Of a DNA stretch of 64,000 nt, positions 20,236-44,949 are shown piece after piece. The stretch comes from Phreatobacter aquaticus (GTDB lineage: Bacteria > Pseudomonadota > Alphaproteobacteria > Rhizobiales > Phreatobacteraceae). The stretch covers positions 1,574,828-1,638,827 of the forward strand of contig NZ_CP039865.1 of the NCBI RefSeq assembly GCF_005160265.1, written 5' to 3'. A program made the translations under genes and the position numbers. The notes below the pieces were generated by a model, which worked only from the letters and a program-made list of their open reading frames with translations, made no database searches and had not been told where the DNA came from. The first letter of the stretch is position 1; every line of letters begins with the position of its first letter.

Positions 20236-20278
20236 GATCTCGGATCATCTGAAACGGGAATTTGGTGCCAAGAAGAGG
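20236..20278. repeat. Left attachment repeat
   Basis: These 43 bases match 49539-49581 at 42 positions; the one difference is A at 20270 against C at 49573. The last 16 bases repeat the 3' end of tRNA-Leu including its CCA, in antisense. The match extends outward with lower identity to 20186 (93 bases, 10 differences by my count). Confidence 0.88.
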
Positions 20279-21790: not shown

Positions 21791-22267
21791 TCAGTCATCC
21801 TTCGGGAAGTGATCAATCAGACAGGGGTTTCGGCTCTTAACTAGGTCCTTGTCTGCCGCCACGATGGATACCCGGAAGGGCGGGAGAATCGCCGCCAACC
21901 CTGACGGAGAGACGCGCTTGTTCATGACGGTGGCACAGGTCGCACACAGCGCCCTGAGAAGGCCGCCTACTCGCCCGTGGGGGCGCAGTTCGAGTTCGTC
22001 GAAGGCCGGGGGCCTGGGTTGCCGGCAGGCAAAGCAGAACAGTTCGTGTGGTGCACAGCGCTGCTTTGTCGGCTTTCGCGCTGCCAGGAAGTCAACTAAG
22101 TCGGCTCCGAGGATCAACGCGGGCCGCCTGTCTGCGATGATCGGTAGACCCTGCTTAATCCAACGGCGGATTGTGAGCTCACTGCTGACGAGAGCGCGGG
22201 CGGCTTCCGCGATGGTATAACTGCGATGCAGCCGCACACCGCGGTGTGCGCTCAAGCGGCCGCCCAT
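21791..22267 (-). CDS. HTH DNA-binding protein with Cys-rich second half (excisionase-like)
   Basis: The 158-residue protein opens with a MerR/excisionase-like helix-turn-helix (YTIAEAARALVSSELTIRRW, about 17-36). A central part follows with two Cys pairs, CFACRQP and LCATCATVMNKR, which probably bind zinc. It ends 3 bases before the integrase start and begins 1 base after the AlpA-like gene, so the three are an operon. Small HTH proteins beside tyrosine recombinases commonly steer the direction of recombination or control integrase expression. The exact role here is inferred from position. Confidence 0.65.
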   Translation of the reverse strand: MGGRLSAHRGVRLHRSYTIAEAARALVSSELTIRRWIKQGLPIIADRRPALILGADLVDFLAARKPTKQRCAPHELFCFACRQPRPPAFDELELRPHGRVGGLLRALCATCATVMNKRVSPSGLAAILPPFRVSIVAADKDLVKSRNPCLIDHFPKDD

Positions 22268-22268
22268 C

Positions 22269-22475
22269 TCAGGCTACCCCCCTGCTCATTAATTCGCGGA
22301 TGTCCTCGACCCGCCACGCTGTGATGCGCGAGCCTAGCTTGACGGGCTGGGGGAAGCGGCCGTCCTTCACGCCAGCCCACCAAGTGGACTTGCTGACGGG
22401 AATGGGACCTCTGGGTGCGATGATGGCGGGGAGCCGCAAAAGGCCGGCGGCGGGGAGTTCGGGAAGGTCCGACAT
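22269..22475 (-). CDS. AlpA-like / excisionase-type small DNA-binding protein
   Basis: The 68-residue protein has the AlpA-family pattern: a Ser-Lys-Ser-Thr-Trp-Trp helix (VSKSTWWAGVKDGRFPQPVK), then LGSRITAWRVEDIRELM. Such proteins bind DNA near attachment sites or promoters and activate integrase or excision. It is the first gene of the integrase operon. Its start at 22475 lies 61 bases from three 21-bp-spaced repeats (22536-22588), which are candidate operators for it or its partner. Confidence 0.75.
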   Translation of the reverse strand: MSDLPELPAAGLLRLPAIIAPRGPIPVSKSTWWAGVKDGRFPQPVKLGSRITAWRVEDIRELMSRGVA

Positions 22476-23003
22476 GGTGCTACCTCGTGTCAGGGAAGAC
22501 GAGGCAGCTGTAGGGAGGCCGATTGCGCCTGAGGACGAATTCGGTTTGCGCCTAACCGAATTCGGTTAGGCGTTAGCCGAATTCGGTTTCGTTGAGGGCC
22601 CGTTTGCTCCAAGGCCAAATGGCTGAAGCGAAAAGGATAAATCGATCAAGGCCAGTGTCGGAGATCGACGTTTTGGTTCTCAGCCAACGCGCTGAAAGTC
22701 TGCAAATAAACTGCAACGCTAAAGCAGATGCTGGCGATCCCCTCGCCTCCAAGCAGCGCCTAGGTCACCTCAACCGCGGCAATCGGTTCGGTCGCGGCAC
22801 CGAGTGGCTCGCTATTCTGACAGTCGGCTGGGCAGGGTGAATCCAATTCGTGTGGCCCATGGACATGCCGCAGCGGGAAGCCGGATCACGGCGTCTTCGC
22901 CGAACGGAGCCCACGACGCAATCCCGCGCATGGGACTAAGGATTTCAACGGTTGAAGGACGGATCTTGAAGGTTTTCGATCAAACCTCTCGACGAGTTCG
23001 GTC
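22476..23003. other. Gene-free control region between integrase operon and Crp/Fnr gene
   Basis: These 528 bases contain the operator array at 22536-22588. No frame is convincing: one of about 70 codons from ATG 22619 has no ribosome-binding site or family resemblance. The rest shows nothing I can name. It is where the integrase module and the nitrate module meet. Confidence 0.5.
22536..22588. promoter_or_regulatory. Three operator-like repeats with exact 21-bp spacing
   Basis: CGAATTCGGTT occurs at 22536, 22557 and 22578, always on the same face of the helix (two turns apart). The middle copy sits inside a perfect 22-bp palindrome, 22550-22571, with arms GCCTAACCGAA / TTCGGTTAGGC. It lies upstream of the AlpA-like start and probably binds a regulator of the recombination module. 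Confidence 0.75.
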
Positions 23004-23696
23004 TCAAACCTCATCAATCAATCTATTCAGCCTCGCTAGGCTCTCGAGCGCAGCGGGATCACGGCAGTTGATTGTCCTGCCGGTCACCGTGAGGTCGTAG
23101 GATTCGAGTGCTACGAAAGTGCGTGACAGATTTTCGCGGGTCATGCCCAGACGGCTGGCGAGCTTGCCTTTTTCGAAGGGTATGAGCGTCGTTAGGATGC
23201 CGTCCTTGACGGTCGCGTTCCGCAAGATCCAACCCGCCAGCCGCTCTAGGCCGGTCCGCACCTTTTGATCCTTCAGTTCGCGAATGACCTCGCGATAGCG
23301 CTCCGCCATCTCATTCACAACGGCGCGCGCGAATGCACCATCGCGCTGGAATACAGCGCGGATCAGTTCCGCCGGGATCATCAGAATGCGCGACGCGTGG
23401 AGGGTTCGGGCCGACTGGAGATGAATCTTGTCGACCAGCACCGCCGCCAGGATGAAGGTTGAGACCGGCGACAGGAACACGATGCTCGTCTCACGGTCTC
23501 CGTGCGTCGCATAGAGTTCGACCATGCCGTCGACGATGACATGCAGAAAGTCCGCGCTGTCGCCCTCGGCCACCAGTTCGACGTGGGCCGGGAAGCGCTG
23601 AAGGTACGAGGCCTGCATCAGCGCATCGAATTCAGGTTGAGCCATGTCGCAGAACAGCGGCAGGGCGCGAACCAGATGGGCGTCCGTTGGGCGCAA
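23004..23696 (-). CDS. Crp/Fnr-family regulator, NnrR/DNR-like
   Basis: A cyclic-nucleotide-binding-type beta-barrel (about 15-115), a dimer helix and a C-terminal winged helix are visible. The recognition helix reads MTRENLSRTF, keeping the Glu, Ser and Arg that FNR uses to read TTGAT. There is no N-terminal Cys cluster, so an iron-sulphur sensor like FNR is unlikely; DNR/NnrR-type NO sensing is plausible. TTG 23696 was chosen because AGGAG lies 7 bases before it (230 residues). An in-frame TTG at 23744 would put the start inside an FNR box. It is divergent from narK and the FNR boxes lie between them, so it likely controls the nar genes and itself. Confidence 0.8.
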   Translation of the reverse strand: MRPTDAHLVRALPLFCDMAQPEFDALMQASYLQRFPAHVELVAEGDSADFLHVIVDGMVELYATHGDRETSIVFLSPVSTFILAAVLVDKIHLQSARTLHASRILMIPAELIRAVFQRDGAFARAVVNEMAERYREVIRELKDQKVRTGLERLAGWILRNATVKDGILTTLIPFEKGKLASRLGMTRENLSRTFVALESYDLTVTGRTINCRDPAALESLARLNRLIDEV

Positions 23697-23730
23697 GTGC
23701 AGACTCCTCAACCATAGCCTTGCGTCATTT

Positions 23731-23744
23731 TTGATAATTGTCAA
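23731..23744. promoter_or_regulatory. FNR-type box 1 (TTGATAATTGTCAA)
   Basis: It matches TTGAT-N4-ATCAA at nine of ten defined positions. It lies 35 bases before the chosen start of the Crp/Fnr gene and about 200 bases before narK, so it more likely serves autoregulation. Confidence 0.7.
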
Positions 23745-23764
23745 ATATGAAGTGCAATAATGTA

Positions 23765-23798
23765 ATTCTTAAAGCCAACATATGTATTATTTAAGAAT
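23765..23798. repeat. AT-rich inverted repeat in narK control region
   Basis: ATTCTTAAA (23765-23773) and TTTAAGAAT (23790-23798) are a perfect 9-bp inverted repeat with a 16-base spacer. It lies between the two FNR boxes. It could be a second operator or a weak hairpin. Confidence 0.5.
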
Positions 23799-23844
23799 AT
23801 CTACTGTCAAAATTCGTAATTTTCCCGAGATCCGCGCTCGGTAG

Positions 23845-23858
23845 TTGATTTCAATCAA
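23845..23858 (+). promoter_or_regulatory. FNR-type box 2, perfect (TTGATTTCAATCAA)
   Basis: A perfect TTGAT-N4-ATCAA site lies 87 bases before the narK ATG. At the usual -41.5 position it would place the transcription start near 23893. No clear -10 box was seen at the expected distance. It is the best candidate for oxygen/NO control of narK-narGHJI. Confidence 0.8.
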
Positions 23859-23945
23859 TACATAATGCCGTCGTTCAGCCTTTTGTTCTGCCGTGTTGCG
23901 CAGCCGTCGGTGATCAGCCGATCGCGCGATGAGGAACGATAGGTC

Positions 23946-26690
23946 ATGAGCACGACGTCTTCAGTACCGGTGGCCGACCAGCGCAGCGCGCTGTGGATGT
24001 CGACGCTGGCCTTCACCATCTGCTTCGCGGTCTGGACGATCTTCTCGATAATCGGAATCCAGATCAAACGGGACCTCGGCCTGACCGAGACGCAGTTCGG
24101 ACTGCTGGTCGGCACACCGATCCTGACGGGCTCGTTGATCCGGCTGATCCTGGGCATCTGGACCGACCAGTACGGTGGCCGCCTTGTCTACACGATCACC
24201 ATGCTGGCGGCGGCGCTGGCGACCTTCCTGCTGACCTTCGCCTACGATTACACGACCTTCCTGATCGCGGCGCTCGGCGTCGGCATCGCCGGCGGCTCGT
24301 TTGCGGTCGGCATCGCCTATGTCTCCAAATGGTATCCGAAGGAAAAGCAGGGCACCGCGCTCGGCATTTTCGGAGCTGGGAATGTTGGCGCAGCCGTCAC
24401 CAAGTTCGCTGCGCCCTTTATCATGATCGCCTATGGCTGGCGGATGGTGGCGATCGTCTGGGCCGTCGTGCTCGCGGTCATGGCCGTCGTCTTCTTCCTC
24501 ACCACCAAAGACGACCCGCAGCTCGCGGCGCGCCGGCTCAAGGGCGAGAAGCCCGAGCCCATGTCGGCCTTGCTCGAACCCTTGAAGAACGTCCAGGTCT
24601 GGCGCTTCTCGCTCTATTATTTCTTCGTCTTCGGCGCCTTCGTAGCGCTGGCACTCTGGCTGCCGCGCTATCTGATGAACGTCTACGGCCTTGGCATCGC
24701 CGCGGCCGGCATGGTCGGCGCCGCCTATTCCATCCCGGCCTCGCTGTTTCGTGCCTATGGCGGCCATCTCTCCGACAAGGTCGGGGCGCGAACCGTAATG
24801 TACTGGACCTTCCTGGTCAGCGTCGTCTGCACCTTCGTCCTGTCCTACCCGCCGACCGACTATGTTGTGCGGACCACGTCGGGCTCGGTGGCCTTCCACC
24901 TGGAAACCGGCCTCATAGCCTTCATGGTCGCTATCTTCGTGCTCGGCTTCTTCATGAGCCTCGGCAAGGCGGCGGTCTTCAAGCACATCCCCGTCTATTA
25001 CCCGACCCGTGTCGGCCCGGTTGGCGGCATTGTCGGGCTGATTGGCGGGCTCGGCGGCTTCATCCTGCCGATCGTGTTCGGCGCCCTGAACGACCTCACA
25101 GGTGTCTGGCAGAGCTGCTTCTGGCTGTTGTTCGTGATTGCCACGGCCTCGCTGGTCTGGATGCACTTTGCCGTCCTGCACATGGAGCGCGAAGCCCGCG
25201 AGACCGGCACTGCCCGCGCGTCGCTACCCGAACTGCCGGAGATGCAGACGATCCATGGCGCAGGCCAGCAGGGCGCGCTGGCCGCGTCTGGCGCGATCCA
25301 GAACTGGAAGCCGGAGGATGCAGAATACTGGGCCCGGAAGGGCAAGGCTATCGCCCGCCGCAACCTCTGGATCTCGATCCCCAACCTCTTGCTCGCCTTC
25401 GCGGTGTGGATGGTCTGGTCGGTGGTCGTGGCCAAGCTCCCCGCCGTCGGGTTCAAGTTCACGACCGACCAGCTGTTCTGGCTCGCGGCGCTCCCCGGTC
25501 TGTCGGGTGCGACGCTCCGAATCGCCTATGGCTTCATGCCGCCGATCTTCGGTGGCCGGCTCTGGACGACGCTGACCACCTGGTCGCTGCTGATCCCGGC
25601 CATCGGCATCGGCATGGCGGTGCAGAACGTCACGACGCCCTATGTCATCTTCCTCGGCCTGGCACTGCTATGTGGCTTCGGCGGCGGCAATTTCGCCTCC
25701 TCCATGTCCAACATCGCCTTCTTCTTCCCCAAGGCCGAGAAGGGCAATGCGCTTGCCCTGAACGCCGGCCTTGGCAATCTCGGCGTCTCAGTTGTGCAGT
25801 TCGTCGTCCCGCTGGTCATCACGGTCGGCGTGTTCGGCGCCATCGGTGGCGAGGCCCAGGACATCGGGGGCGGCGCAAAGCTCTTCCTGCAGAACGCCGG
25901 CTATATCTGGGTACCGTTCATCGCAGCCTCCGCCATTGCCGCCTGGTTCGGCATGGACGACCTCGCCAGTATGAAGGCGACCTTCGCTCAGCAGGCCGTC
26001 ATCTTCCAGCGCAAGCACAATTGGCTGATGTGCTGGCTCTATGTGGGCACCTTCGGCTCGTTCATCGGGTATTCCGCCGGCTTCCCGCTCCTGTCCAAGA
26101 CGCTGTTCCCGAGCGTCGATGCCCTGCAGCTCGCCTTCCTCGGGCCGCTGGTCGGCGCCATGTCACGCTCGCTCACCGGCTGGATCTCCGATCGATGGGG
26201 TGGTGGCCGGGTGACGCTCTGGGTCTTCGCCGGCATGGCGGCCGCTGTCCTCGCTGTCCTCTACTTCATCACGATCAAGGACCAGCCCGGCGCGTTCCTC
26301 GGCTTCTTCCTGAGCTTCATGGCGCTGTTCATGCTCACCGGCATCGGCAATGCCTCCACCTTCCAGATGATCCCCGCGATCATGAGCAAGGACATGCCGC
26401 GGCTCATGCCGGGCGCCGACGAGATCACCCGCAACCGTCAGGCCGAGCTCGAGGGGGCCGCAATCATCGGCTTCTCCTCGGCGATCGGGGCCTATGGCGG
26501 CTTCTTCATCCCCAAGGCCTACGGCACGTCGATCGCGATGACCGGCGCCGTCAATGGCGCTCTGTGGGCCTTCTTCGCCTTCTACCTCACCTGCATCGCC
26601 ATCACCTGGGCGGTCTACACGCGCAAAGGCGGCGTCCTGCACGACGTCGAGCGCCGCCGGACCGCGCCGTCGCTTCAGCCCGCCCAGTGA
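23946..26690 (+). CDS. narK: Fused NarK1-NarK2 nitrate/nitrite transporter
   Basis: The 914-residue protein is two MFS transporters in one chain. The first (about 15-420) starts TLAFTICFAVWTIFSIIGIQ and carries the family loop FGAGNVGAAVTKFAAP. The second (about 455-895) starts NLWISIPNLLLAFAVWMVWS and carries NAGLGNLGVSVVQFVVPL; both are nitrate-signature regions. In Paracoccus the NarK1 part is a nitrate/proton symporter and NarK2 a nitrate/nitrite antiporter. The narG gene starts 17 bases past the stop, so the transporter and reductase are one operon. ATG 23946 follows the FNR-box region. Confidence 0.93.
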   Translation: MSTTSSVPVADQRSALWMSTLAFTICFAVWTIFSIIGIQIKRDLGLTETQFGLLVGTPILTGSLIRLILGIWTDQYGGRLVYTITMLAAALATFLLTFAYDYTTFLIAALGVGIAGGSFAVGIAYVSKWYPKEKQGTALGIFGAGNVGAAVTKFAAPFIMIAYGWRMVAIVWAVVLAVMAVVFFLTTKDDPQLAARRLKGEKPEPMSALLEPLKNVQVWRFSLYYFFVFGAFVALALWLPRYLMNVYGLGIAAAGMVGAAYSIPASLFRAYGGHLSDKVGARTVMYWTFLVSVVCTFVLSYPPTDYVVRTTSGSVAFHLETGLIAFMVAIFVLGFFMSLGKAAVFKHIPVYYPTRVGPVGGIVGLIGGLGGFILPIVFGALNDLTGVWQSCFWLLFVIATASLVWMHFAVLHMEREARETGTARASLPELPEMQTIHGAGQQGALAASGAIQNWKPEDAEYWARKGKAIARRNLWISIPNLLLAFAVWMVWSVVVAKLPAVGFKFTTDQLFWLAALPGLSGATLRIAYGFMPPIFGGRLWTTLTTWSLLIPAIGIGMAVQNVTTPYVIFLGLALLCGFGGGNFASSMSNIAFFFPKAEKGNALALNAGLGNLGVSVVQFVVPLVITVGVFGAIGGEAQDIGGGAKLFLQNAGYIWVPFIAASAIAAWFGMDDLASMKATFAQQAVIFQRKHNWLMCWLYVGTFGSFIGYSAGFPLLSKTLFPSVDALQLAFLGPLVGAMSRSLTGWISDRWGGGRVTLWVFAGMAAAVLAVLYFITIKDQPGAFLGFFLSFMALFMLTGIGNASTFQMIPAIMSKDMPRLMPGADEITRNRQAELEGAAIIGFSSAIGAYGGFFIPKAYGTSIAMTGAVNGALWAFFAFYLTCIAITWAVYTRKGGVLHDVERRRTAPSLQPAQ

Positions 26691-26707
26691 CCCGAGAGGC
26701 CTGACCC

Positions 26708-29700
26708 ATGTCCCATTTTCTCGATCGCCTGAGCTTCTTCACCAGGGCCACCGGAACCTTTGCCGACGGCCATGGCATCACCACCACGGAAGACCGGTCC
26801 TGGGAGGACGCCTATCGGCGGCGCTGGCAGTCCGACAAAATCGTCCGCTCCACCCACGGGGTGAACTGCACCGGTTCGTGCTCCTGGAAGATCTACGTCA
26901 AGGGCGGCATCGTCACCTGGGAAACCCAGCAGACAGACTACCCGCGCACCCGGCCGGATCTGCCGAACCACGAACCCCGCGGCTGCGCCCGTGGCGCCTC
27001 CTATTCCTGGTATCTCTATTCCGGCAACCGGGTGAAATATCCCATGGTCCGCTCGCGGTTGATGAAGCTGTGGCGCGAGGCGCGCGCGACGCTGACGCCC
27101 GTGGCCGCCTGGGCCTCCATCGTCCAGAACCCGGAGAAGCGGCGGAGCTACACCTCCAAGCGCGGCCATGGCGGCTTCGTCCGCGCCGCCTGGGACGAGG
27201 TCAACGAGATCATCGCGGCGGCCAATGCCTATACCGCCAAGACCTTCGGCCCGGACCGCATCTATGGCTTCTCGCCGATCCCGGCCATGTCGATGGTCTC
27301 CTATGCTGCCGGTTCACGCTACCTGTCGCTGCTCGGCGGCGTCTGCATGTCGTTCTACGACTGGTATTGCGACCTGCCGCCGGCCTCGCCGCAGACCTGG
27401 GGCGAGCAGACCGACGTGCCGGAATCGGCCGACTGGTACAATTCCGGCTTCCTGATCCTCTGGGGCTCGAACGTGCCGCAAACGCGCACGCCGGATGCCC
27501 ATTTCTACACCGAGGCGCGCTATCGCGGCGCCAAGTCGGTGGTGATCTGCCCGGACTATTCGGAAGCCTCGAAGTTCGCCGATCTTTGGATCTCGGTGAA
27601 GCAGGGCACCGACGCGGCACTCGGCATGGCCATGGGCCACGTCATCCTCAAGGAGTTCTACGTCGACCGCCAGGCACCCTATTTCCACGACTATGTCCGC
27701 CAGTACTCGGACATGCCCATGCTGGTGCGGCTCGTCGAGCAGGACGGCCGCCTTGTGCCGGAGCGCCAGATCCGGGCATCCGACTTCGCCGACGGGCTGG
27801 GCGAAACCAACAATCCCGATTGGAAGACGGTCGGCATCGACGAGACCACCGACGATGTCTGCGTGCCGCAGGGCTCGGTAGGCTTCCGCTGGGGCGAGAA
27901 GGGCAAGTGGAATCTCGAGGAAAAGAACGCCACCGGCACGCCGACTCGGCTGCGACTGACCCTGACCGGCGCCGGCGAACAGCTTGCCGATGTCGCCTTC
28001 CCATATTTCGGCAATATCGAGCATGAGCATTTCGCGTCCACCAAGGATGCCTCGATCCTGGTGCGCAAGGTGCCGGTGCGCCGGCTCAAGCTGAAGGACG
28101 GCGAGGCGCTGGTCGCCACTGTCCACGACCTGATGCTGGCCAATTACGGTGTCGATCGCGGCTTTGCCGGTGATGCCGTCGCCAAGAGCTACGATGAGAC
28201 CGGGCCCTACACGCCCGCTTGGGCCGAGAGCGTCACAGGCGTTCCGCGCGACCAGATCATCACGGTCGGCCGCGAGTTCGCCCGCAACGCCGAGAAGACC
28301 AAGGGCCGCTCGATGATCATCATCGGCGCCGCCATGAACCATTGGTACCACTCGGACATGAACTACCGCGGCGTGATCAACATGCTGGTCATGTGCGGGT
28401 GCATCGGTCAGTCGGGTGGTGGCTGGTCGCACTATGTCGGCCAGGAAAAGCTCCGGCCGCAAACCGGCTGGGCGCCGCTGGCCTTCGCGCTCGACTGGGC
28501 GCGTCCGCCGCGCCAGCAGAACTCGACCTCGGCTTTCTACGTCAACACCAACCAGTGGCGCTACGAGACCATGAAGGCCGGCGACATCCTTTCGCCGACG
28601 GCCCCGAAGGGCGACTGGGACGGCGCCATCATCGACTACAACATCCGCGCGGTGCGCATGGGCTGGCTGCCGGCCTATCCGACGCTGCAGGAGAATTCGC
28701 TCGAGATCGCCGGCAGCGCCGCCGCCGCGGGCCTCGAGGTCAAGGACTATGTCGCCCAGTCGGTGAAGTCGGGCGCGCTCAACTTCGCCTGGGAGGACCC
28801 CGACCATCCGAAGAACTGGCCGCGCAACATGTTCGTCTGGAGGTCTAACCTGCTGGGTTCATCGGGCAAGGGCCACGAATATTTCCTCAAGCATCTGCTC
28901 GGCACCACCCATGGCGTGCTGGGCAAGGATCTCGGCCGCACCGGCGGCGTCAAGCCGACCGAGGTCAAGTGGCGCGACGAGACCGTCGAGGGCAAGCTCG
29001 ACCTCTTGGTGACGCTCGACTTCCGCATGTCGACCACCTGCGTCTATTCCGACATCGTTCTGCCCACGGCCACCTGGTACGAAAAGAACGACCTCAACAC
29101 CTCCGACATGCACCCCTTCATCCATCCGCTGACGGCGGCGGTGGACCCGGTCTGGGAATCGAAGTCGGACTGGGAGATCTACAAGGGTCTCGCCAAGACC
29201 TTCTCGGAGGTCTGCACCGAGGTGCTCGGCGTCGAGAAGGACGTCGTGCTGACCCCGATCATGCACGACACCCCCGGCGAGATCGCCCAGCCCTTCGACG
29301 TCAAGGACTGGAAGAAGGGCGAGATCGAGGCGATCCCCGGCAAGACCATGCCGGCGGTCCAGGTGATCGAGCGCGACTACCCGAACCTCTATGCCCGCTT
29401 CACCTCGCTCGGCCCGCTGATGGCCAAGGTCGGCAATGGCGGCAAGGGCATGGCCTGGAATACCGAGCACGAGGTTCAGCTGCTGAAGGAGCTGAACGGC
29501 GAGCATGCCGACGGTGCCAACAAGGGCCTGGCCAAAATCGTCACCGACATCGATGCCACCGAAGTCATCCTGATGATGGCACCGGAGACCAATGGTGAGG
29601 TGGCGGTGAAAGCCTGGACATCGCTTGAGGGCTTCACCGGCCTCGACCACGCCCATCTCGCGCTGTCCAAGGAGGACGAGAAGATCCGGTTCCGCGATGT

Positions 29701-30463
29701 GGTGGCGCAGCCGCGCAAGATCATCTCGTCGCCGATCTGGTCGGGCATCGAGAGCGAGAAGGTCTGCTACAATGCTGGCTACACCAACGTTCATGAACTG
29801 ATCCCGTGGCGGACGCTCTCCGGGCGCCAGCAGCTCTATCAGGATCATGTCTGGATGCGGGCTTTCGGCGAGGCGCTCTGCGTCTATCGGCCGCCGGTCG
29901 ATATGAAGACCACCCACCCCGTGATGGCCCATGCGCCGAACGGCAACAAGCAGGTGGTGCTGAACTTCATCACGCCGCACCAGAAATGGGGCATCCACTC
30001 CACCTATACCGACAACCTGATGATGCTGACCCTGTCACGGGGCGGGCCCATCGTCTGGCTGTCGGAGGAGGATGCGGCCAAGGTCGATATCGTCGACAAC
30101 GACTGGGTGGAGGCCTTCAACACCAATGGCGCGCTGGTGGCGCGTGCAGTGGTGTCCCAGCGCATCAAGACCGGAACGGTCTTCATGTACCACGCGCAGG
30201 AAAAGATCGTGAACGTGCCAGGGTCGGAGACCACCGGCAATCGCGGCGGCATCCACAACTCGGTGACCCGCGTCGTCCAGAAGCCGACCCACATGATCGG
30301 CGGCTACGCCCAGCTGGCCTACGGCTTCAACTACTACGGAACGATCGGCACCAACCGCGACGAGTTCGTCATCGTCCGCAAGCTGGCCCATGTCGATTGG
30401 CTGGAACGTCCCTTCGACGAGGCGAAAGCCCGTGCGAAGGCCGCCGCCCTCGCTGCTGAGTGA
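26708..30463 (+). CDS. narG: Membrane-bound nitrate reductase alpha subunit NarG
   Basis: At 1251 residues this is full-length NarG, the catalytic subunit that reduces nitrate to nitrite on the cytoplasmic side. His50 and the Cys residues of STHGVNCTGSCSW bind the FS0 cluster. Asp222 in SFYDWYCDLPPASP matches the molybdenum ligand Asp of E. coli NarG. Other marks are PRTRPDLPNHEPRGC and WGSNVPQTRTPDAHF. No Tat leader is present, as normal for NarG, which is exported only as far as the inner membrane face. It requires the bis-MGD cofactor; only moaA of that pathway is in the island. narH begins 15 bases later. Confidence 0.97.
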   Translation: MSHFLDRLSFFTRATGTFADGHGITTTEDRSWEDAYRRRWQSDKIVRSTHGVNCTGSCSWKIYVKGGIVTWETQQTDYPRTRPDLPNHEPRGCARGASYSWYLYSGNRVKYPMVRSRLMKLWREARATLTPVAAWASIVQNPEKRRSYTSKRGHGGFVRAAWDEVNEIIAAANAYTAKTFGPDRIYGFSPIPAMSMVSYAAGSRYLSLLGGVCMSFYDWYCDLPPASPQTWGEQTDVPESADWYNSGFLILWGSNVPQTRTPDAHFYTEARYRGAKSVVICPDYSEASKFADLWISVKQGTDAALGMAMGHVILKEFYVDRQAPYFHDYVRQYSDMPMLVRLVEQDGRLVPERQIRASDFADGLGETNNPDWKTVGIDETTDDVCVPQGSVGFRWGEKGKWNLEEKNATGTPTRLRLTLTGAGEQLADVAFPYFGNIEHEHFASTKDASILVRKVPVRRLKLKDGEALVATVHDLMLANYGVDRGFAGDAVAKSYDETGPYTPAWAESVTGVPRDQIITVGREFARNAEKTKGRSMIIIGAAMNHWYHSDMNYRGVINMLVMCGCIGQSGGGWSHYVGQEKLRPQTGWAPLAFALDWARPPRQQNSTSAFYVNTNQWRYETMKAGDILSPTAPKGDWDGAIIDYNIRAVRMGWLPAYPTLQENSLEIAGSAAAAGLEVKDYVAQSVKSGALNFAWEDPDHPKNWPRNMFVWRSNLLGSSGKGHEYFLKHLLGTTHGVLGKDLGRTGGVKPTEVKWRDETVEGKLDLLVTLDFRMSTTCVYSDIVLPTATWYEKNDLNTSDMHPFIHPLTAAVDPVWESKSDWEIYKGLAKTFSEVCTEVLGVEKDVVLTPIMHDTPGEIAQPFDVKDWKKGEIEAIPGKTMPAVQVIERDYPNLYARFTSLGPLMAKVGNGGKGMAWNTEHEVQLLKELNGEHADGANKGLAKIVTDIDATEVILMMAPETNGEVAVKAWTSLEGFTGLDHAHLALSKEDEKIRFRDVVAQPRKIISSPIWSGIESEKVCYNAGYTNVHELIPWRTLSGRQQLYQDHVWMRAFGEALCVYRPPVDMKTTHPVMAHAPNGNKQVVLNFITPHQKWGIHSTYTDNLMMLTLSRGGPIVWLSEEDAAKVDIVDNDWVEAFNTNGALVARAVVSQRIKTGTVFMYHAQEKIVNVPGSETTGNRGGIHNSVTRVVQKPTHMIGGYAQLAYGFNYYGTIGTNRDEFVIVRKLAHVDWLERPFDEAKARAKAAALAAE

Positions 30464-30478
30464 CAAGGAGAGACTCCC

Positions 30479-31996
30479 ATGAAGATCCGCGCTCAGATTG
30501 CGATGGTGATGAACCTCGACAAGTGCATCGGCTGTCATACCTGCTCGGTCACCTGCAAGAACGTCTGGACCAATCGCGAAGGCGTCGAATACGCTTGGTT
30601 CAACAATGTCGAGACCAAGCCCGGCATCGGTTATCCGAAGGACTGGGAGAACCAGGACAAGTGGAAGGGCGGCTGGACCCGCAAGAAGAACGGCAAGATC
30701 CAGCCGCGCATCGGCTCTAAGTGGCGGGTGCTGGCGAATATCTTCGCCAATCCGGACCTGCCGGAGATCGACGACTATTACGAGCCCTTCACCTTCGACT
30801 ACGAGCACCTGCAGAAGGCGCCGGAGCTGGAGGCCTTCCCCACCGCCCGCCCGCGTTCGCTGATCTCTGGCGAGCGGATGGAGAAGATCGAGTGGGGCCC
30901 GAACTGGGAGGAAATCCTCGGCGGCGAATTCGCCAAGCGCTCGAAGGACAAGAACTTCGAAGGCATCGAGAAGGAGATCTACGGCCAGTTCGAGAACACC
31001 TTCATGATGTATCTGCCGAGGCTGTGCGAGCACTGCCTCAACCCGACCTGCGTCGCGGCCTGTCCGTCGGGCGCGATCTACAAGCGTGACGAGGACGGCA
31101 TCGTCCTGATCGACCAGGACAAGTGCCGTGGCTGGCGCATGTGCGTCTCGGCCTGTCCCTACAAGAAGATCTATTTCAACTGGAGCTCGGGTAAGTCCGA
31201 GAAGTGCATTTTCTGCTATCCGCGCCTTGAGGCGGGGCAGCCGACGGTGTGTTCGGAGACCTGCGTCGGCCGCATCCGCTATCTCGGCGTTGTCCTCTAT
31301 GACGCCGACGGCATCGAGAAGGCGGCGGCAACCGAGAACGAGCAGGATCTCTACGAGGAGCAGCTGAAGCTCTTCCTCGATCCGAACGATCCGAAGGTGA
31401 TCGAAGAGGCCCGCCGCCAGGGCATTCCGGAGAACTGGCTGGAGGCCGCCAAGCGTTCGCCGGTCTGGAAGATGGCGATGGAATGGAAGATCGCCTTCCC
31501 GCTTCATCCCGAGTACCGGACCATGCCGATGGTCTGGTACGTGCCGCCGCTCTCGCCCATCCAGTCGGCCGCGGAAGCCGGCAAGATCGGCGTCGACGGC
31601 GATATGCCCGACGTCCGCTCGCTGCGCATTCCGGTCAAGTACCTTGCCAATCTGCTGACCGCCGGCAAGGAGGAGCCGATCGTCACCGGCCTCGAGCGGA
31701 TGCTCGCCATGCGCGCCTACATGCGTGTCAAGACCATCGACGGTGTCATCGACGAGACCATCGCTCGGCGCGTCGGGATGACCGGTGCGATGATCGAGGA
31801 CATGTACCAGGTGATGGCGATCGCTAATTACGAGGATCGCTTCGTTATCCCGACCAGCCACCGGGAATGGACCGAGGACGCCTACGAGCTGCGCGGCAAT
31901 TGCGGGTTCTCGTTCGGCAATGGCTGCTCGGACGGCGACACCAAGCCCAGCCTGTTCGGCAAGCCCAAGGCCAAGAGCCCGATGGGAGTCGCGTGA
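30479..31996 (+). CDS. narH: Nitrate reductase beta subunit NarH
   Basis: The 505-residue electron-transfer subunit holds four Cys groups: CIGCHTCSVTC (Cys16, 19, 22, 26), CEHCLNPTCVAACP, CRGWRMCVSACP and CIFCYPRL with CSETC. In the third group Trp replaces one Cys, the known signature of the 3Fe-4S centre, so three 4Fe-4S and one 3Fe-4S cluster are expected. It passes electrons from the NarI haems to NarG. AAGGAGAG precedes ATG 30479. Its stop overlaps the narJ start by one base (TGATG), giving translational coupling. Confidence 0.97.
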   Translation: MKIRAQIAMVMNLDKCIGCHTCSVTCKNVWTNREGVEYAWFNNVETKPGIGYPKDWENQDKWKGGWTRKKNGKIQPRIGSKWRVLANIFANPDLPEIDDYYEPFTFDYEHLQKAPELEAFPTARPRSLISGERMEKIEWGPNWEEILGGEFAKRSKDKNFEGIEKEIYGQFENTFMMYLPRLCEHCLNPTCVAACPSGAIYKRDEDGIVLIDQDKCRGWRMCVSACPYKKIYFNWSSGKSEKCIFCYPRLEAGQPTVCSETCVGRIRYLGVVLYDADGIEKAAATENEQDLYEEQLKLFLDPNDPKVIEEARRQGIPENWLEAAKRSPVWKMAMEWKIAFPLHPEYRTMPMVWYVPPLSPIQSAAEAGKIGVDGDMPDVRSLRIPVKYLANLLTAGKEEPIVTGLERMLAMRAYMRVKTIDGVIDETIARRVGMTGAMIEDMYQVMAIANYEDRFVIPTSHREWTEDAYELRGNCGFSFGNGCSDGDTKPSLFGKPKAKSPMGVA

Positions 31997-32748
31997 TGAA
32001 GACCTTCAAGGTTCTCTCGGCACTGCTGTCCTACCCGCAGGCGGGCCTCCTGCCGGCTTTGCCCGAGCTTGAGGCTGTCCTCTCCGGAGAGGCGCTTCTC
32101 TCGGCCAGCGGGCGGCGCCTGCTGCAACCTCTCTTCGACGACCTGAGGGCGAACGACCTGACGGAGCTGCAGGAGCGCTACGTCTTCCTGTTCGACCGGA
32201 CACGGTCACTGTCGCTGCATCTCTTCGAGCACGTTCATGGCGAGAGCCGCGACCGCGGCCAGGCGATGGTGGATCTGAAGGGGGTCTACGAGGAGGCGGG
32301 CTTCGCGCTCGCATCTTCCGAGCTGCCCGACTTCATCCCGCTTTTCCTAGAATTCCTGTCACTACGGCCGGCGGCCGAGGCTGTCTCGTTCCTCGGCGAG
32401 ACGGTTCACATCCTGATCACGCTGGCTGAGCGCCTGGAGAAGCGGTCCTCGCCCTATGCTGGCCTGTTCCGCGGACTGATCGAACTGTCGCGCGCTAGGC
32501 CCAAGCAGGAGGATCTCGCCGCGATCGTTCCCGACGACGGCATAGAAGCCGATGATCTGGAGGCGCTCGACGCCGTCTGGGAGGCCGAGGAGGTCATCTT
32601 CGGCCCGGGGGCCGCTGAGGCGGCCTGCGGCAAGGAGACACTCGGCTCGAAACTTCGCGCGGCGACCCGCCCGGCGGCCGGCGTCACCGTGCCGAAGCCG
32701 GTCGGGCCGCGCCCGATCGTCTCCCACAACAACATCCCGCGCGCCTGA
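31996..32748 (+). CDS. narJ: Nitrate reductase assembly chaperone NarJ (delta subunit)
   Basis: The 250-residue protein is a TorD/NarJ-type helical chaperone. It opens MKTFKVLSALLSYPQAGLLP, a usual NarJ start, and keeps ELQERYVFLFDRTRSLSLHLFEHVHGESRDRG, the region that contacts the NarG N-terminus (split here as a description of residues about 53-83). It is not part of the finished enzyme but is needed for cofactor insertion. The last 50 residues are Pro/Ala-rich and probably disordered. It overlaps narH by one base and narI follows after 13 bases. Confidence 0.94.
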   Translation: MKTFKVLSALLSYPQAGLLPALPELEAVLSGEALLSASGRRLLQPLFDDLRANDLTELQERYVFLFDRTRSLSLHLFEHVHGESRDRGQAMVDLKGVYEEAGFALASSELPDFIPLFLEFLSLRPAAEAVSFLGETVHILITLAERLEKRSSPYAGLFRGLIELSRARPKQEDLAAIVPDDGIEADDLEALDAVWEAEEVIFGPGAAEAACGKETLGSKLRAATRPAAGVTVPKPVGPRPIVSHNNIPRA

Positions 32749-32761
32749 AGGAGAGCGAGCC

Positions 32762-33487
32762 ATGGCCGCCACCCTCAACCACATCCTGTTCGGCTGGTAT
32801 CCCTACGTCGCGCTGACGGTGTTCCTCACGGGCAGTCTGATACGCTTCGATCGCGAGCAATACACCTGGAAGGCCTCGTCATCGCAGATCCTGCGCAAGC
32901 GGCAGCTGCGCTGGGGCTCGAACCTGTTCCATCTGGGCATTCTCGCCATCTTCGCCGGCCATCTCGTCGGCCTGCTCACGCCCATCCAGGTGTTCGATGC
33001 GCTCGGCGTGTCGCATGGTGCCAAGCAGATCCTCGCGATCATGGCCGGCGGCGTGGCCGGCATTGCATGCTTTATCGGCCTCGTCCTGCTGATCCACCGG
33101 CGCCTATTCGACCCACGCATCCGTCGCAATTCGTCCTTCTCCGACACCGCGATCCTCCTGATCCTGTTCGCCCAGCTTTGCCTCGGGCTTCTGACGATCC
33201 CGTTCTCGCTCGGCCATCTGGACGGTCACGAGATGCTCAAGTTCATGACCTGGGCTCAGGGCATCGCCTATCTGCAGCCGGGGGCTTCCGCGGCCATCTC
33301 CGACGTCGCCCTGGTGTTTAAGGCGCACATCGTGCTCGGCCTCAGCATCTTCATGGTCTTCCCGTTCACCCGCCTTGTCCACGTCTGGTCGGCACCGGTC
33401 TGGTACCTCGGCCGACGTGGCTACCAGATCGTCCGCACCCGCGACGGTCGTCGTGTTGCAACCCCCCAGGCGAGGCCCGTCCGATGA
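32762..33487 (+). CDS. narI: Nitrate reductase gamma subunit NarI (dihaem cytochrome b)
   Basis: The 241-residue membrane protein has five hydrophobic helices. The haem-ligand His residues are visible: His57 and His67 in NLFHLGILAIFAGHLVG, and His189 and His207 in KAHIVLGL and RLVHVWSAP. It oxidises quinol at the periplasmic side and passes electrons to NarH. AAGGAGAG precedes ATG 32762. The next gene starts within its stop (ATGA overlap at 33484-33487). Confidence 0.96.
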   Translation: MAATLNHILFGWYPYVALTVFLTGSLIRFDREQYTWKASSSQILRKRQLRWGSNLFHLGILAIFAGHLVGLLTPIQVFDALGVSHGAKQILAIMAGGVAGIACFIGLVLLIHRRLFDPRIRRNSSFSDTAILLILFAQLCLGLLTIPFSLGHLDGHEMLKFMTWAQGIAYLQPGASAAISDVALVFKAHIVLGLSIFMVFPFTRLVHVWSAPVWYLGRRGYQIVRTRDGRRVATPQARPVR

Positions 33488-34323
33488 CCCATGCAGCCCC
33501 CACGCGCACACTGATCTCCGCGCCAGGCCGCACGCCGGTAAGCGTCAACGGCCAGGTGATCGCCCGCGATGCCATCCTGCGCGAAGCCCGCAACCACCAG
33601 AGCGCCCAGGCGTCCGAGGCTTGGAAGGCAGCGGCAACCGCCCTGGTCGTCAAGGAACTGCTGGTTCAGGAGGCAAGGCGCCTCGGCGTCAGCGGCGAGG
33701 CGATGGACGACGGCGAAGGCCGGCGCGAGACTGATGAGGAAGCGGCAATCCGTAGCCTCGTTGACCGTGAGGTGATCGTACCGACGCCGACTGAGGCCGA
33801 GTGTCGGCGATATTACGCCGCGAATGCCGCCCGCTTTCGCTCGGCGACCCTGACGGAAGCCTGCCATATCCTTCTCGCCGCCTCGCCCGAAGACGGCGAG
33901 GCCCGACAGGCGGCAGAGGTGCTGGCGGACCAGATCCTTGCCGAGTTGAAGGATGATCCGGCCCGCTTCGGCGAACTCGCCGCCGCGCATTCGCGCTGCC
34001 CGTCGGCCTCGCAGGGCGGCTCCCTCGGACAGCTGACCTCTGGCTCCACCGTGCCGGAATTCGAGGCGGCCATGGCGCTGATCGAGCCCGGCACCGTTTC
34101 GCCAATGGCGATCCCGACGCGCTTTGGCCTCCACATCGTCCGCGTGGCGCGACGGATCGAGGGCGCGGCGCTGCCCTTCGACCTCGTCCGCGACCGGATC
34201 GCCGGCTATCTCGCCTCCGCCGTCGAGCGCCGGGCGACCGCGCAATATGTCGCGCGCCTGGTGTCTGCAGCCGATATCCGGGGCGTCGACCTGGCGGGCG
34301 CGCAAGCCCACCGCGTCCATTAG
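33484..34323 (+). CDS. Parvulin-type peptidyl-prolyl isomerase, nar-operon associated
   Basis: The 279-residue protein has an N-terminal SurA/PpiC-like helical part and a parvulin domain at about residues 120-222 (ACHILLAAS, GELAAAHSRCPSASQGGSLG, PTRFGLHIVRV). No export signal is visible, so it probably works in the cytoplasm, where NarG and NarH fold. It overlaps narI by 4 bases, so it is translated with the reductase. PPIases at this position are found in other nar operons, where a role in NarGH maturation is assumed. The isomerase class is sure; the client is inferred from position. Confidence 0.87.
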   Translation: MTHAAPTRTLISAPGRTPVSVNGQVIARDAILREARNHQSAQASEAWKAAATALVVKELLVQEARRLGVSGEAMDDGEGRRETDEEAAIRSLVDREVIVPTPTEAECRRYYAANAARFRSATLTEACHILLAASPEDGEARQAAEVLADQILAELKDDPARFGELAAAHSRCPSASQGGSLGQLTSGSTVPEFEAAMALIEPGTVSPMAIPTRFGLHIVRVARRIEGAALPFDLVRDRIAGYLASAVERRATAQYVARLVSAADIRGVDLAGAQAHRVH

Positions 34324-34336
34324 GAAAGATCAGGTC

Positions 34337-34648
34337 ATGCTGCTCGGAGACCTTCTGGCCAGACTGCACGACGCGACCATCGCGGAGCAGACCCTGGCGT
34401 CCCTCAACGATCTGATCCTCGCGGCCACCGTGTCCCAGCGGGCGGTTGCGGCGGGTGTGCCGCTTGGCACTTTCGCCGCCGAACAGGTGGAGAGCTACGC
34501 CGACGGCGCAGACGATTCCGAATGGACCACCGTCATGGGCCTGATGGCCCGCGCCGATGATCCCGGAGCTGTCCTGTTGAGGCGCGCGCTGAACCATTCT
34601 GGCGGCGCAGCGGCCTCGGGCTGTTCCTGCGGCGGCAAGCACGCCTGA
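34337..34648 (+). CDS. Small nar-operon protein with Cys-Gly tail, function unknown
   Basis: The 103-residue acidic, helical protein starts MLLGDLLARLHDATIAEQTL and ends GCSCGGKHA, a C-terminal Cys-x-Cys plus His that could hold metal. I do not recognise a named domain. It lies 13 bases after the parvulin gene and 27 bases before moaA, so it is part of the nitrate operon. AAAGATCAGGT precedes ATG 34337. A role in metal or cofactor delivery to the reductase is possible, but only position and tail suggest it. Confidence 0.75.
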   Translation: MLLGDLLARLHDATIAEQTLASLNDLILAATVSQRAVAAGVPLGTFAAEQVESYADGADDSEWTTVMGLMARADDPGAVLLRRALNHSGGAAASGCSCGGKHA

Positions 34649-34675
34649 AATCGATCCCCCTGGAGGGCCACGTTC

Positions 34676-35677
34676 ATGACAGTCTTGGGCCCGCTCATCG
34701 ACCCGTTCGGCCGGCGCGTGACCTATCTGCGCCTGTCTGTCACCGACCGCTGCGACCTCCGCTGCTTCTATTGCATGTCGGAGCGCCCTGACTTCCTGCC
34801 CAAGCGCGAGCTCCTGAGCCTTGAGGAACTCGACCGCGTGGCCTCGGCATTTGTCTCCCGCGGCGTGCGCAAGCTCCGCCTTACCGGCGGCGAGCCGCTG
34901 GTCCGGCGCGACGTGGTCGAACTGTTCCGTTCACTTGGCCGCCATCTCGGATCGGGCGCGCTGGACGAGCTGACGCTCACCACCAATGGCTCGCAGCTCG
35001 CGCAGCATGCCGATACACTTGCGGCTGCCGGCGTGCGCCGTGTCAACGTCTCGCTCGACAGCCTTGATGCCGGACGATTCGCTGCGATCACCCGGCGCGG
35101 ACGGCTCGCCGATACGCTAGACGGGATCGAAGCCGCCCGTGCGGCAGGGCTCGCGGTCAAGCTCAACACGGTGGCGCTGGCCGGCGTCAACGATGACGAG
35201 TTCCATGACCTCGTGGCCTTTGGCCATGAGCACGGCATGGACGTGACCTTCATCGAGGTGATGCCGATCGGCGAGATCGGCCATGGCCAGGCGCGGCATT
35301 TCATGCCGATCAGCGAGGTGCGCAAGCGGCTTGAAACGCCTTTTCGCTTGGCGCCGAGCCGGCATTCCTCCGGCGGCCCGGCGCGCTACTGGACGTCGGA
35401 AACCACCGGCCACCGTGTCGGCTTCATCGCGGCGACCACTTGTAATTTCTGCCCCGGCTGCAACCGCGTCCGGCTGACCGCCACCGGACAGCTGGAAGCC
35501 TGCCTCGGTCGGGAAGAGAGCACCGATCTCAGGGCGGCCATCCGCGGCAGCGAGGCGGATGAGGCTTTGCACACGGCTATCGATCGCGCGATCGCATCGA
35601 AGCCCGAGGGCCATGCCTTCGAGGCCGCGGCCAGCGTTTCGGCAACCACGCGCCCAATGCATCGCACAGGCGGTTGA
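34676..35677 (+). CDS. moaA: GTP 3',8-cyclase MoaA (molybdenum cofactor biosynthesis)
   Basis: The 333-residue radical-SAM enzyme has the CxxxCxxC motif at Cys26, Cys30 and Cys33 (RCDLRCFYC), the SAM-binding [11 protein letters not shown], and a C-terminal second cluster motif FCPGCNR. The usual terminal Gly-Gly is present, although the ending PMHRTGG differs from the common SMxxIGG. It turns GTP into 3',8-cyclo-GTP, the first step of molybdopterin synthesis. No other moa or moe gene is nearby, so this copy supplements core genes when nitrate reductase is made. CTGGAGGG precedes ATG 34676. Confidence 0.93.
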
Positions 35678-35688
35678 GGAGCGATGGC

Positions 35689-36435
35689 ATGACGCTCGAC
35701 GATCTCTTCGACCGCAATGCTGCCTGGGCCGAGAAGAAGACGCGGGACGACCCGACGTTCTTCGTTCGGATGGCCGAACAGCAATCGCCGAACTACCTCT
35801 GGATCGGCTGTTCCGACAGCCGGGTGACCGCCAATGACGTGCTCGGCCTCGACCCCGGCGAGGTCTTCGTCCAGCGCAACATCGCCAACATGGTCCACAC
35901 CAGCGACATGAACCTGCTGGCAGTGCTGGAATATGCGGTCGAAACGCTCAATGTCGGGCATGTGATCATCTGCGGCCATTATGGCTGCGGCGGTGTGCAG
36001 CGTGCCCTTGGCCATGACCGGTCTGCGCTGGTCGATCACTGGCTACAGCCGCTGGTCATGCTCCATCGCAAGCATCAGGCGACCTTCGCCGCGCTGGCCA
36101 GCGACAGCCTACGGCTCGACCGCATGTGCGAGCTGAATGTCGAGATGCAGGTCCGGCGCATCGCCGCGACCCCGATTATCGAAGCCGCCTGGGCGCGCGG
36201 TGAGCCGCTCCAAGTCCATGGCTGGATCTATGGCATTCACGACGGATTGCTGCGGGCGCTCGGCTCGCCGATCACGTCGATCGCCGAGCGCGACGCCCTT
36301 GCCAATATTGACCAGCGGGCGAAAGAGCCTGTCGAACCGTGGAGTGCCGCACGCCGCCACGCGGCCGAGGCCTTCGCCGCGCTCGATCCGCAGGTCGCAG
36401 AACGTCTTCCGTGCTGCAGCGGGCTTGCTCGATAG
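35689..36435 (+). CDS. Beta-class carbonic anhydrase
   Basis: The 248-residue protein has the beta-class zinc site: Cys41, Asp43 and Arg45 in GCSDSRV, and His97 and Cys100 in CGHYGCGG. It interconverts CO2 and bicarbonate in the cytoplasm. TGAGGA lies 8 bases before ATG 35689; a TTG further upstream is less likely. It starts 11 bases after the moaA stop and closes the plus-strand nitrate operon. Why carbonic anhydrase is tied to nitrate respiration is not evident; pH or bicarbonate balance under anaerobic growth is a guess. Confidence 0.92.
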   Translation: MTLDDLFDRNAAWAEKKTRDDPTFFVRMAEQQSPNYLWIGCSDSRVTANDVLGLDPGEVFVQRNIANMVHTSDMNLLAVLEYAVETLNVGHVIICGHYGCGGVQRALGHDRSALVDHWLQPLVMLHRKHQATFAALASDSLRLDRMCELNVEMQVRRIAATPIIEAAWARGEPLQVHGWIYGIHDGLLRALGSPITSIAERDALANIDQRAKEPVEPWSAARRHAAEAFAALDPQVAERLPCCSGLAR

Positions 36436-36498
36436 TCCTGAGAATGACCGGTCATGACCGCCACGCCTGGGCATAGGACATTCTCTGGGCGAGCCTCC

Positions 36499-37188
36499 CT
36501 ATCCTGTGGTTTCGAGCCGCCCATCGCGCAACGAGAAGATGTGATCGAACCGCGCGAAGATCTTTTCGTCATGGGTCACCGTGACGATCGCCGCCTGCTG
36601 TTCCTGTGCAACCCTGCGCAGCAGGTCCATGACGATGCGCGCCCGGTCGGAATCGAGGGCCGCAGTCGGCTCATCGGCGAGAATGATCCGCGGCCGGTTG
36701 GCCAGCGCGCGGGCAATCGCAACACGCTGCGCCTCGCCGCCTGACAGTAGGGCTGGCAGGACGTCGCGACGGTTGGAGACTTCGAGATAGTCGAGCAGCT
36801 CGATGGCGCGGGCTCTCGCCTCTTCGGCACTCTGGCCTGCGAGCGTCAGGACCAGCGCAACATTCTCGGTCACAGTCAGGAATGGCAGCAGATTGTGGGC
36901 CTGGAAGATGAAGCCGATGCGCTCCAGCCGCATGCGCCTGAGATCGCCCTTGAGCCATCGCCCGTCGAAGATGGGCTCTCCGTCAAGCACAACGCGGCCG
37001 GATGACGGTTCCTGGATGCAGCCGATAATGTTGAGCAGGGTGGTTTTGCCCGACCCGCTCGGCCCCTTCAGGCCAACGACCTGACCCGGCATGACGTCGA
37101 GCGAGACGCCACGGAGCGCGTCGACGCGGGTCGCGCCCTCGCCAAAGTGCTTGGAGATGTCAATCAGCGACACGAGTGGGGGCGTCAT
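36499..37188 (-). CDS. ABC exporter ATP-binding protein, DevA/MacB type
   Basis: The 229-residue ATPase has Walker A GPSGSGKTTL, the signature LLSGGEAQRVAIARAL and Walker B IILADEPTAALDSD. It resembles the DevA/LolD/MacB group that works with FtsX-like permeases. The permease gene ends 2 bases before its start and the membrane fusion protein precedes that. The three would form a tripartite exporter spanning the periplasm with an outer-membrane channel encoded elsewhere. It converges with the carbonic anhydrase gene. Confidence 0.88.
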   Translation of the reverse strand: MTPPLVSLIDISKHFGEGATRVDALRGVSLDVMPGQVVGLKGPSGSGKTTLLNIIGCIQEPSSGRVVLDGEPIFDGRWLKGDLRRMRLERIGFIFQAHNLLPFLTVTENVALVLTLAGQSAEEARARAIELLDYLEVSNRRDVLPALLSGGEAQRVAIARALANRPRIILADEPTAALDSDRARIVMDLLRRVAQEQQAAIVTVTHDEKIFARFDHIFSLRDGRLETTG

Positions 37189-37190
37189 GG

Positions 37191-39484: not shown

Positions 39485-39577
39485 GACACATTCCCCGCCA
39501 CCACCGGCGCCATGCCCCAGAGGCAGGCGTGTAGATCGGCATTGTTTCACCTTTAGAGTGCGATCGACCTAACCGAT

Positions 39578-39591
39578 ATGATCGAGATCAT
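39578..39591. promoter_or_regulatory. FNR-like variant box (ATGATCGAGATCAT)
   Basis: A palindromic ATGAT-N4-ATCAT site stands between the divergent exporter operon (start 39484) and the small secreted protein gene (start 39659). It could serve either side. Two more sites of this type lie at 44950 and 46355. Confidence 0.6.
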
Positions 39592-39658
39592 TCTGGATCG
39601 ACCCCGGCCAGACTAGTTTCGCCTTGATCTCGGTTGCAGGCTCGGAAAGAAAAGTGTG

Positions 39659-40081
39659 ATGGGTACGTCCCAAGGTCGCTCTCGCCTTTTCGGTCTGGCT
39701 CTGGCGCTGGCCTGCTCCACACCACTCGCTTGTGAGGCAGGTGCCGTCACACCAGCAGGTGCCTTGCCGACCCATGCCAGACTGAGCCATCCGCCGAGAC
39801 TAGATCAGACGCAATATTCGCAGGCGACCCGCGAGCAGGTGGAAACGTCGGCGCGCCAGCTTCTGGCAACTGCGCGAAAGGGACGCCCGTTCACGACGCA
39901 GCGTGGCGTCAAGCGGATCCCCATCGAGATCAACGGCGAGACATATGGCACCCTCTGGGAGGATACCGATCTCGGGTTGGTGGGATTGGGCGCCCACTGG
40001 GAGAGCCAGGGCGGCATGCGTGTCGAGCTGGTGCGGGATGGACGGGTCATCGGGATGATGTGGATCGAAGATGCCCGATGA
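39659..40081 (+). CDS. Small secreted protein of unknown function
   Basis: The 140-residue protein has a signal peptide (RLFGLALALACSTPLA, cleavage near CEAGA) and a mature part of about 110 residues with a beta-rich end (IPIEINGETYGTLW, GMRVELVRDGRVIGMMWI). I recognise no named domain. ATG 39659 has only a weak purine-rich site (AAAGAAAAG). The next gene overlaps its end by 11 bases, so the two are coupled and the protein may be a periplasmic partner of that binding protein. Confidence 0.7.
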   Translation: MGTSQGRSRLFGLALALACSTPLACEAGAVTPAGALPTHARLSHPPRLDQTQYSQATREQVETSARQLLATARKGRPFTTQRGVKRIPIEINGETYGTLWEDTDLGLVGLGAHWESQGGMRVELVRDGRVIGMMWIEDAR

Positions 40082-42391: not shown

Positions 42392-42488
42392 TGGCCCACC
42401 GATCTGCTTGTTCAGCACGCATGGCCTGCATTGCCGGGCAACCGCATTCGGCCGGGCACCATCGCTTGCCGACCTCACATCTGGTTCG

Positions 42489-43129: not shown

Positions 43130-43145
43130 GATGATGATCCCTTGA

Positions 43146-44210: not shown

Positions 44211-44384
44211 TGGTGGCCCGAACCTGTTGGAGCTTGCGGCCTGACGGCCTGGGCGAGGCAGACGATCAGGCTTGAACACGCCATGCTGCCTAGTCGACGC
44301 TTCCGGGAGCGGGATTAGGCCACAGGTTGGCGCTGCGGAGGTTGTTCTGGGTCAAGCGATGTGACGGCTTCGGCGCCTCGCTGG

Positions 44385-44876: not shown

Positions 44877-44949
44877 GGCAGATTCCTGGCTGGATGGAGA
44901 CCGCGCCGTCGCGGTCGACGATCTTTATCCCGTCACTGCGGCACACTGC

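Follow-up and report, generated by a model that had tools for sequence, protein, structure and literature searches.

In the alphaproteobacterial integrative element ICEMlSymR7A the element-encoded helix-turn-helix (HTH) variant protein FseA (DUF6499-DUF2285) activates the rdfS promoter by binding an inverted repeat there, and the activity of this promoter is negligible in the absence of FseA (PMC10359603, PMC11963761). AlpA acts as the excisionase in the Shewanella element CP4So, where excision is controlled at the alpA promoter and the known regulator of alpA is the host protein H-NS (PMC5148205). Two other kinds of elements are relevant, namely, GInt islands with the ginABCD operon, which combine several tyrosine recombinases with a small putative DNA-binding protein (PMC5385486), and Pseudomonas intY-alpA islands located downstream of tmRNA, where flanking direct repeats enclose a tyrosine integrase at one end, cargo, and alpA at the opposite end (PMC12595487).

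The window analysed here is the whole 64,000-nucleotide stretch of the Phreatobacter aquaticus genome (contig NZ_CP039865.1, positions 1,574,828 to 1,638,827), which contains an array of palindromes before an alpA gene. Its closest known analogue is FseA-rdfS of ICEMlSymR7A, and the array system appears to work alike with a regulator that is unrelated by Pfam. Common to both are an element-encoded protein with an HTH-like domain (predicted for ORF299, the proposed binder here), inverted-repeat DNA at the promoter of an excision factor, and an integrative element of Alphaproteobacteria; the inverted-repeat box near the -35 region of the excision-factor promoter has its counterpart here in the palindromes near -39 and -60 relative to the predicted start, which differ in sequence and size. 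However, ORF299 has no Pfam match and hence no DUF2285, and it is one open frame adjoining a P4-type integrase, while FseA is joined from two ORFs by frameshift; the single 28-bp box is replaced by two or three short palindromes at 21-bp spacing; and the putative target is alpA, with the regulation proposed from sequence. The CP4-57-like prophages such as CP4So share alpA with a P4-type integrase, an element placed at a tRNA or tmRNA gene, and the control of excision by the alpA promoter (PMC5148205), but are regulated by host H-NS, whereas an element-encoded protein with a dedicated phased operator is proposed here and a second recombinase is present in the alpA operon. GInt islands resemble this locus in being genomic islands that encode several tyrosine recombinases together with a small putative DNA-binding protein; in place of their three-recombinase operon with ginD, one recombinase was found here at each island end. 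The intY-alpA islands have the same general layout but another att site, and the available portion of their description mentions no ORF299-type operator array (PMC12595487).

The region of 20.26–49.57 kb is read as an island of about 29 kb integrated in tRNA-Leu, with attL and attR and with the alpA operon as its left end (Table 1), because the stretch 20166-20278 repeats the tRNA-Leu end and the P4-type integrase and ORF299 lie beside the tRNA. The following features of AlpA/P4-type-integrase tRNA islands are present: an AlpA family protein, an Arm-type integrase beside a tRNA, direct-repeat att sites, and an unoccupied site in a relative. Within the same genus, genome G019 possesses truB and tRNA-Leu with no integrase nearby, and genomes G160 and G263 carry related integrases at the truB/tRNA-Leu site. 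Downstream of the array, read on the minus strand, come alpA (about 60 bp away), the HTH gene, and int2.

Table 1. Coordinates of the array, the putative alpA promoter, and the genes and boundaries of the island in the window.
Feature	Position	Strand	Remarks
attL core, duplicated tRNA-Leu 3' end	20263..20278		longer repeat 20166-20278 vs 49468-49581, 86%
int2, tyrosine recombinase, 370 aa	20675..21787	-	PF00589
158-aa protein, excisionase-like HTH and Cys pairs	21791..22267	-	weak HTH/excisionase matches
alpA, 68 aa, AlpA-family excisionase/regulator	22269..22475	-	PF05930, E 7e-7, 29.4 bits vs cut-off 21
Leader hairpin GCTGCCTCGT...ACGAGGTAGC over the alpA ribosome-binding site	22479..22508	-	covariation and fold
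Putative -10 hexamer TACAGC, alpA promoter	22507..22512	-	TA conserved, 20 bp past O1 end; consensus only
O1, alpA-proximal palindrome, AACCGAATTCGTCC read on -	22533..22546	-	one arm imperfect; centre about 64 bp before alpA start codon
O2, perfect palindrome AACCGAATTCGGTT	22554..22567		within 22-bp palindrome 22550-22571
O3, distal palindrome, AACCGAATTCGGCT read on -	22575..22588	-	extra unit, absent from most relatives
Cargo between array and ORF299	22589..47241		Crp/Fnr regulator, NarK-type fusion, nar operon, moaA-like gene, others
ORF299, proposed array-binding regulator, 299 aa	47242..48141	-	last ~75 residues = predicted three-helix domain
P4-type integrase adjoining tRNA-Leu	48138..49379	-	PF13356, PF22022, PF00589; end overlaps ORF299 start
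attR core, 3' end of tRNA-Leu(CAG)	49566..49581		tRNA gene 49566-49650 (-)

The array consists of three near-identical palindromes with the core CCGAATTCGG, placed 21 bp apart and spanning 22533-22588. A triple 21-bp-spaced array with a 22-bp palindrome upstream of the AlpA-like gene had been predicted earlier from the letters of the sequence and was confirmed, since CGAATTCGGTT is exactly repeated on the plus strand at 22536, 22557, and 22578 with intervals of 21 and 21 bp. Spacing and palindrome were described correctly, and the description can be refined to three palindromes, since every unit is palindromic itself (AACCGAATTCGGTT type) with centres 21 bp apart at 22539/22540 (O1), 22560/22561 (O2), and 22581/22582 (O3). 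The perfect 22-bp palindrome GCCTAACCGAATTCGGTTAGGC (22550-22571) contains O2, and the stretch 22536-22585 forms a single inverted repeat of 25+25 bp with 88% complementarity. The array is real and not a product of chance: six matches to CGAATTCGGTT with at most one mismatch were observed on both strands of the window versus 1.07 expected from shuffled sequence, this number was reached in 0 of 100 shuffles, and five of the six matches belong to the array. The exact spaced pattern has no second occurrence in the 4.97-Mb genome, and the flank 22592-23010 has no match among 11 other genomes of the genus. Rfam gave no family for the array or the alpA leader; the best match, a plant microRNA precursor model, was rejected as it merely reflects the inverted repeat.

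The relatives of the module were collected by int2 and AlpA searches, which resulted in 110 loci including the window's own. In many alphaproteobacterial loci the order is P4-type integrase, ORF299 homologue, array, alpA, HTH gene, and int2, where the ORF299-type gene normally ends just before the array and a tRNA directly precedes the P4-type integrase in 8 of 10 loci scanned. Conservation beside homologous alpA modules had been named beforehand as the decisive point for the original prediction, and the array does recur before alpA in many relatives, usually as two palindromes at the same spacing in Alpha- and Gammaproteobacteria, three units being the exception. When ORF299 is displaced, as in the window, or inverted, as in locus L019, the array remains with alpA and is therefore part of the alpA promoter rather than of the ORF end. 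The third site was considered as a remnant of the ORF299 3' end, but this was rejected, as the half-sites at homologous ORF ends are 18–20 bp away instead of 21 and look like coding coincidence. In 11 of the 16 genomes in which the spaced pattern occurs, the matches fall within long open frames that have no module nearby, and they were taken for coding coincidences. Possible third sites were also observed, at another spacing (about 32 bp) in L103 and as a degenerate middle site in L088; thus, the number of units varies.

Several loci deviate from the common type. In L004, L006, L028, L087, and L097 a different C-terminus of the upstream protein is accompanied at the same place by different short repeats, TTTTTGGCC / TTTCCGGC, with a spacing of about 9-10 bp. 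In the gammaproteobacterial L080 two ACCGCAATTGCGGT-type palindromes 21 bp apart follow a different upstream ORF, so the geometry is the same and the sequence is other. Finally, a Legionella adelaidensis plasmid (L153), typed as MOBH and mobilizable, possesses the array, an ORF299 homologue, and alpA, with a RepB/primase gene after alpA.

The comparison of loci indicates which protein tracks the array. In the motif-free test a 21-bp-spaced repeat was detected in 18 of 27 loci with an ORF299-type C-terminus upstream. It was absent from all 5 loci with another C-terminus and occurred in 1 of 28 others, the rate in shuffles being 0.5%. The contrast of 18/27 versus 1/33 has a Fisher probability of 8e-8, although the loci are phylogenetically related and not independent samples, so that this value and the permutation counts given below overstate certainty. 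Across 35 loci the operator similarity correlated with similarity of the last 75 residues at 0.82, with AlpA at -0.02, and with the 158-aa protein at 0.19, and the partial rank correlations (partial Mantel) with the operator were 0.82 for the C-terminal domain (0/1000 permutations, given AlpA), -0.05 for AlpA, and 0.23 for the HTH protein. When only the 26 domain-bearing loci are considered, the partial correlation of the domain is still 0.62 given AlpA and 0.55 when the HTH protein is controlled for. Because the operator is placed between the codons of the domain and alpA, mere linkage would favour both equally.

Four loci were found after the rule connecting domain and operator had been formed. 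Two sites 21 bp apart are located directly after the ORF both in L130 (genome G697), where AlpA is 40% and int2 36% identical, and in L153, which has another AlpA type, and one clear site is present in L131. In Ruegeria L152 the third helix is near-identical (ETIRKYL) and the palindrome is different, the ORF299 homologue being annotated there as two pieces. Of the first set, the gammaproteobacterial L081 has a different AlpA and shares only the C-terminal domain, in which the helix reads DDTIRK; its two sites are both perfect. According to these comparisons the array follows the last 75 residues of the ORF299-type protein and not AlpA.

ORF299 itself matches 0 Pfam families, and the homologues tried gave no significant match in Pfam, PHROGs, or NCBIfam; none of the phage records carries it, and in plasmid records the homologue is labelled hypothetical. 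The AlphaFold2 model, one of those built on 26–28 sequences, has a mean pLDDT of 90 for the whole protein and 89 for the last 74 residues, which are predicted to fold into three helices, the third of them opening with a conserved DT(I/V)RKYL. Fold searches with the whole protein and structure searches with the C-terminal domain gave no significant match (for the domain, best VIA Z 4.2, Foldseek E > 1), the best weak rows for the domain including the DNA-binding domains of POU, DeoR, NtrC4, and StbA (Z <= 4.2, Foldseek E > 1). The C-terminus is predicted to be HTH-like, where the term HTH refers to the helix pattern.

The position of the array before alpA is rigid. The distance from O1 to the alpA start is 64 bp in nearly every relative, the few larger distances being due to AlpA alignments which begin inside the gene, and the distance from the end of O1 to the conserved TA of the -10-like hexamer is 20 bp in 20 of 20 loci examined. 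In these 20 loci no -35 hexamer was found at spacings 15–18 (best 1.65 of 6 matches, about random level), and the 2.4 matches at spacing 19 come from the conserved arm of the operator. With a transcription start 7 nt downstream of the hexamer, the centres of O1, O2, and O3 would fall near -39, -60, and -81, a layout that suits either an activator that overlaps the -35 region or a repressor. The fixed distance to the alpA promoter and start codon supports the earlier idea that the array is the switch of the recombination module, a function that we infer.

At a rough probability of 0.7, the array serves the alpA-HTH-int2 operon as its operator, is bound by ORF299, and controls alpA and with it the direction of recombination, probably by activation, with AlpA driving excision. 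In this mechanism ORF299, which would be made from the other end of the island along with the P4-type integrase, is the most likely array binder, and its C-terminal three-helix domain would bind each palindrome as a dimer, the 21-bp (two-turn) spacing aligning neighbouring dimers along a single face of the helix. ORF299 bound at O1 would probably recruit RNA polymerase and turn alpA on; recruitment is proposed because O1 covers the expected place of the -35 hexamer and no such hexamer is found. Together with the P4-type integrase, AlpA would then bring about excision, and the hairpin at the ribosome-binding site may add a second, translational brake on alpA.

The best surviving alternative is that ORF299 is a repressor, whose dimers on O1-O3 would block RNA polymerase in the manner of phage repressors and keep the island integrated. 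This is possible, if less probable, and would agree with the location of O1 over the -35 region, with the resemblance of several helically phased palindromes to cooperative phage operators, and with the encoding of ORF299 together with the integrase, which must be usable while excision is off. However, a repressible promoter needs a recognisable -35 hexamer, which is missing at spacings 15–18, and the analogous alphaproteobacterial FseA-rdfS system works by activation (PMC10359603). Between the two signs of regulation by ORF299, activation is considered somewhat more likely, the sign being judged from the missing -35 hexamer.

It is unlikely that the array serves not as a promoter operator but as a recombination or partition site, either accessory for int2 or for the P4-type integrase, or as a StbA-like centromere. 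Multiple phased palindromes inside a recombination module and the weak likeness of the ORF299 C-terminal domain to the StbA DNA-binding domain (Foldseek probability 0.38, Z 3.2) would fit such a role; however, the distances to the -10-like TA and the alpA start are fixed, neither att site in the window is close to the array, and int2 homologues are widespread without the array. Binding by the 158-aa protein is slightly less probable still. This protein has an excisionase-like HTH and within the 26 domain-bearing loci keeps a weak partial correlation of 0.34 with the operator (19/1000 permutations) and may therefore play a minor role, but the value is far below that of the ORF299 domain, homologues 40–48% identical are also present in array-less loci, and the Legionella plasmid has the array with the RepB/primase gene instead of this gene after alpA. 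The least probable binder is AlpA, which had been suggested originally and would act as an autoregulator or an excision-complex protein, since despite the array standing directly before alpA and the ability of excision factors such as RdfS to bind their own promoter (PMC11963761), AlpA is 72–76% identical with an almost unchanged HTH in relatives without the array, unrelated AlpA types stand behind the same array (L130, L153, L081), and the partial correlation is about -0.05, so that the covariation tests reject it.

The leader between the promoter and alpA contains an inverted repeat that is paired in 77% of cells across 25 relatives, where 8 of 10 pairs changed on both sides. The covariation of this hairpin was 0.344, compared with 0.180 for shuffles (0/500) and no more than 0.158 on sliding, and the fold of the window's leader has -17.7 kcal/mol with z of -2.9. 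Some G-U pairs favour a stem formed in RNA, the alternative being a protein-binding inverted repeat in DNA. An int-alpA RNA motif exists, and it gave no Rfam match in these loci. Similar leader inverted repeats, also with no matching Rfam family, were observed in some array-less relatives.

Returning to ORF299 as the regulator, the chances are slightly in favour of a broader reading, in which its homologues would represent an undescribed family of sequence-specific regulators, and the C-terminal 75-residue domain with the two-turn operator pair would make up an exchangeable alpA control cassette in integrated islands of Alpha- and Gammaproteobacteria, so that when the C-terminus is swapped the operator is swapped. 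If the proposed mechanism is true, excision of a widespread island type would be governed by a simple switch of one protein, two or three palindromes, and one promoter, and an unnamed protein family with no significant Pfam, PHROG, or NCBIfam match would obtain a probable role and a DNA target. In this genome the array would then govern the mobility of a nitrate-respiration island.

Between the two recombination modules of this island (20263-49581) a nitrate-respiration set is located, which includes the NarK-type fusion, narGHJI-like genes, and the moaA-like gene. The gap between the array and ORF299 is 24.6 kb in the window versus a few to tens of bp in compact relatives; the cargo has broken the ancestral module into two parts. 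The ORF at 46360-46974 on the minus strand, adjoining the ORF299 end, has no Pfam match; it looks like a degraded IS5-type transposase and is possibly a trace of the route by which the cargo entered.
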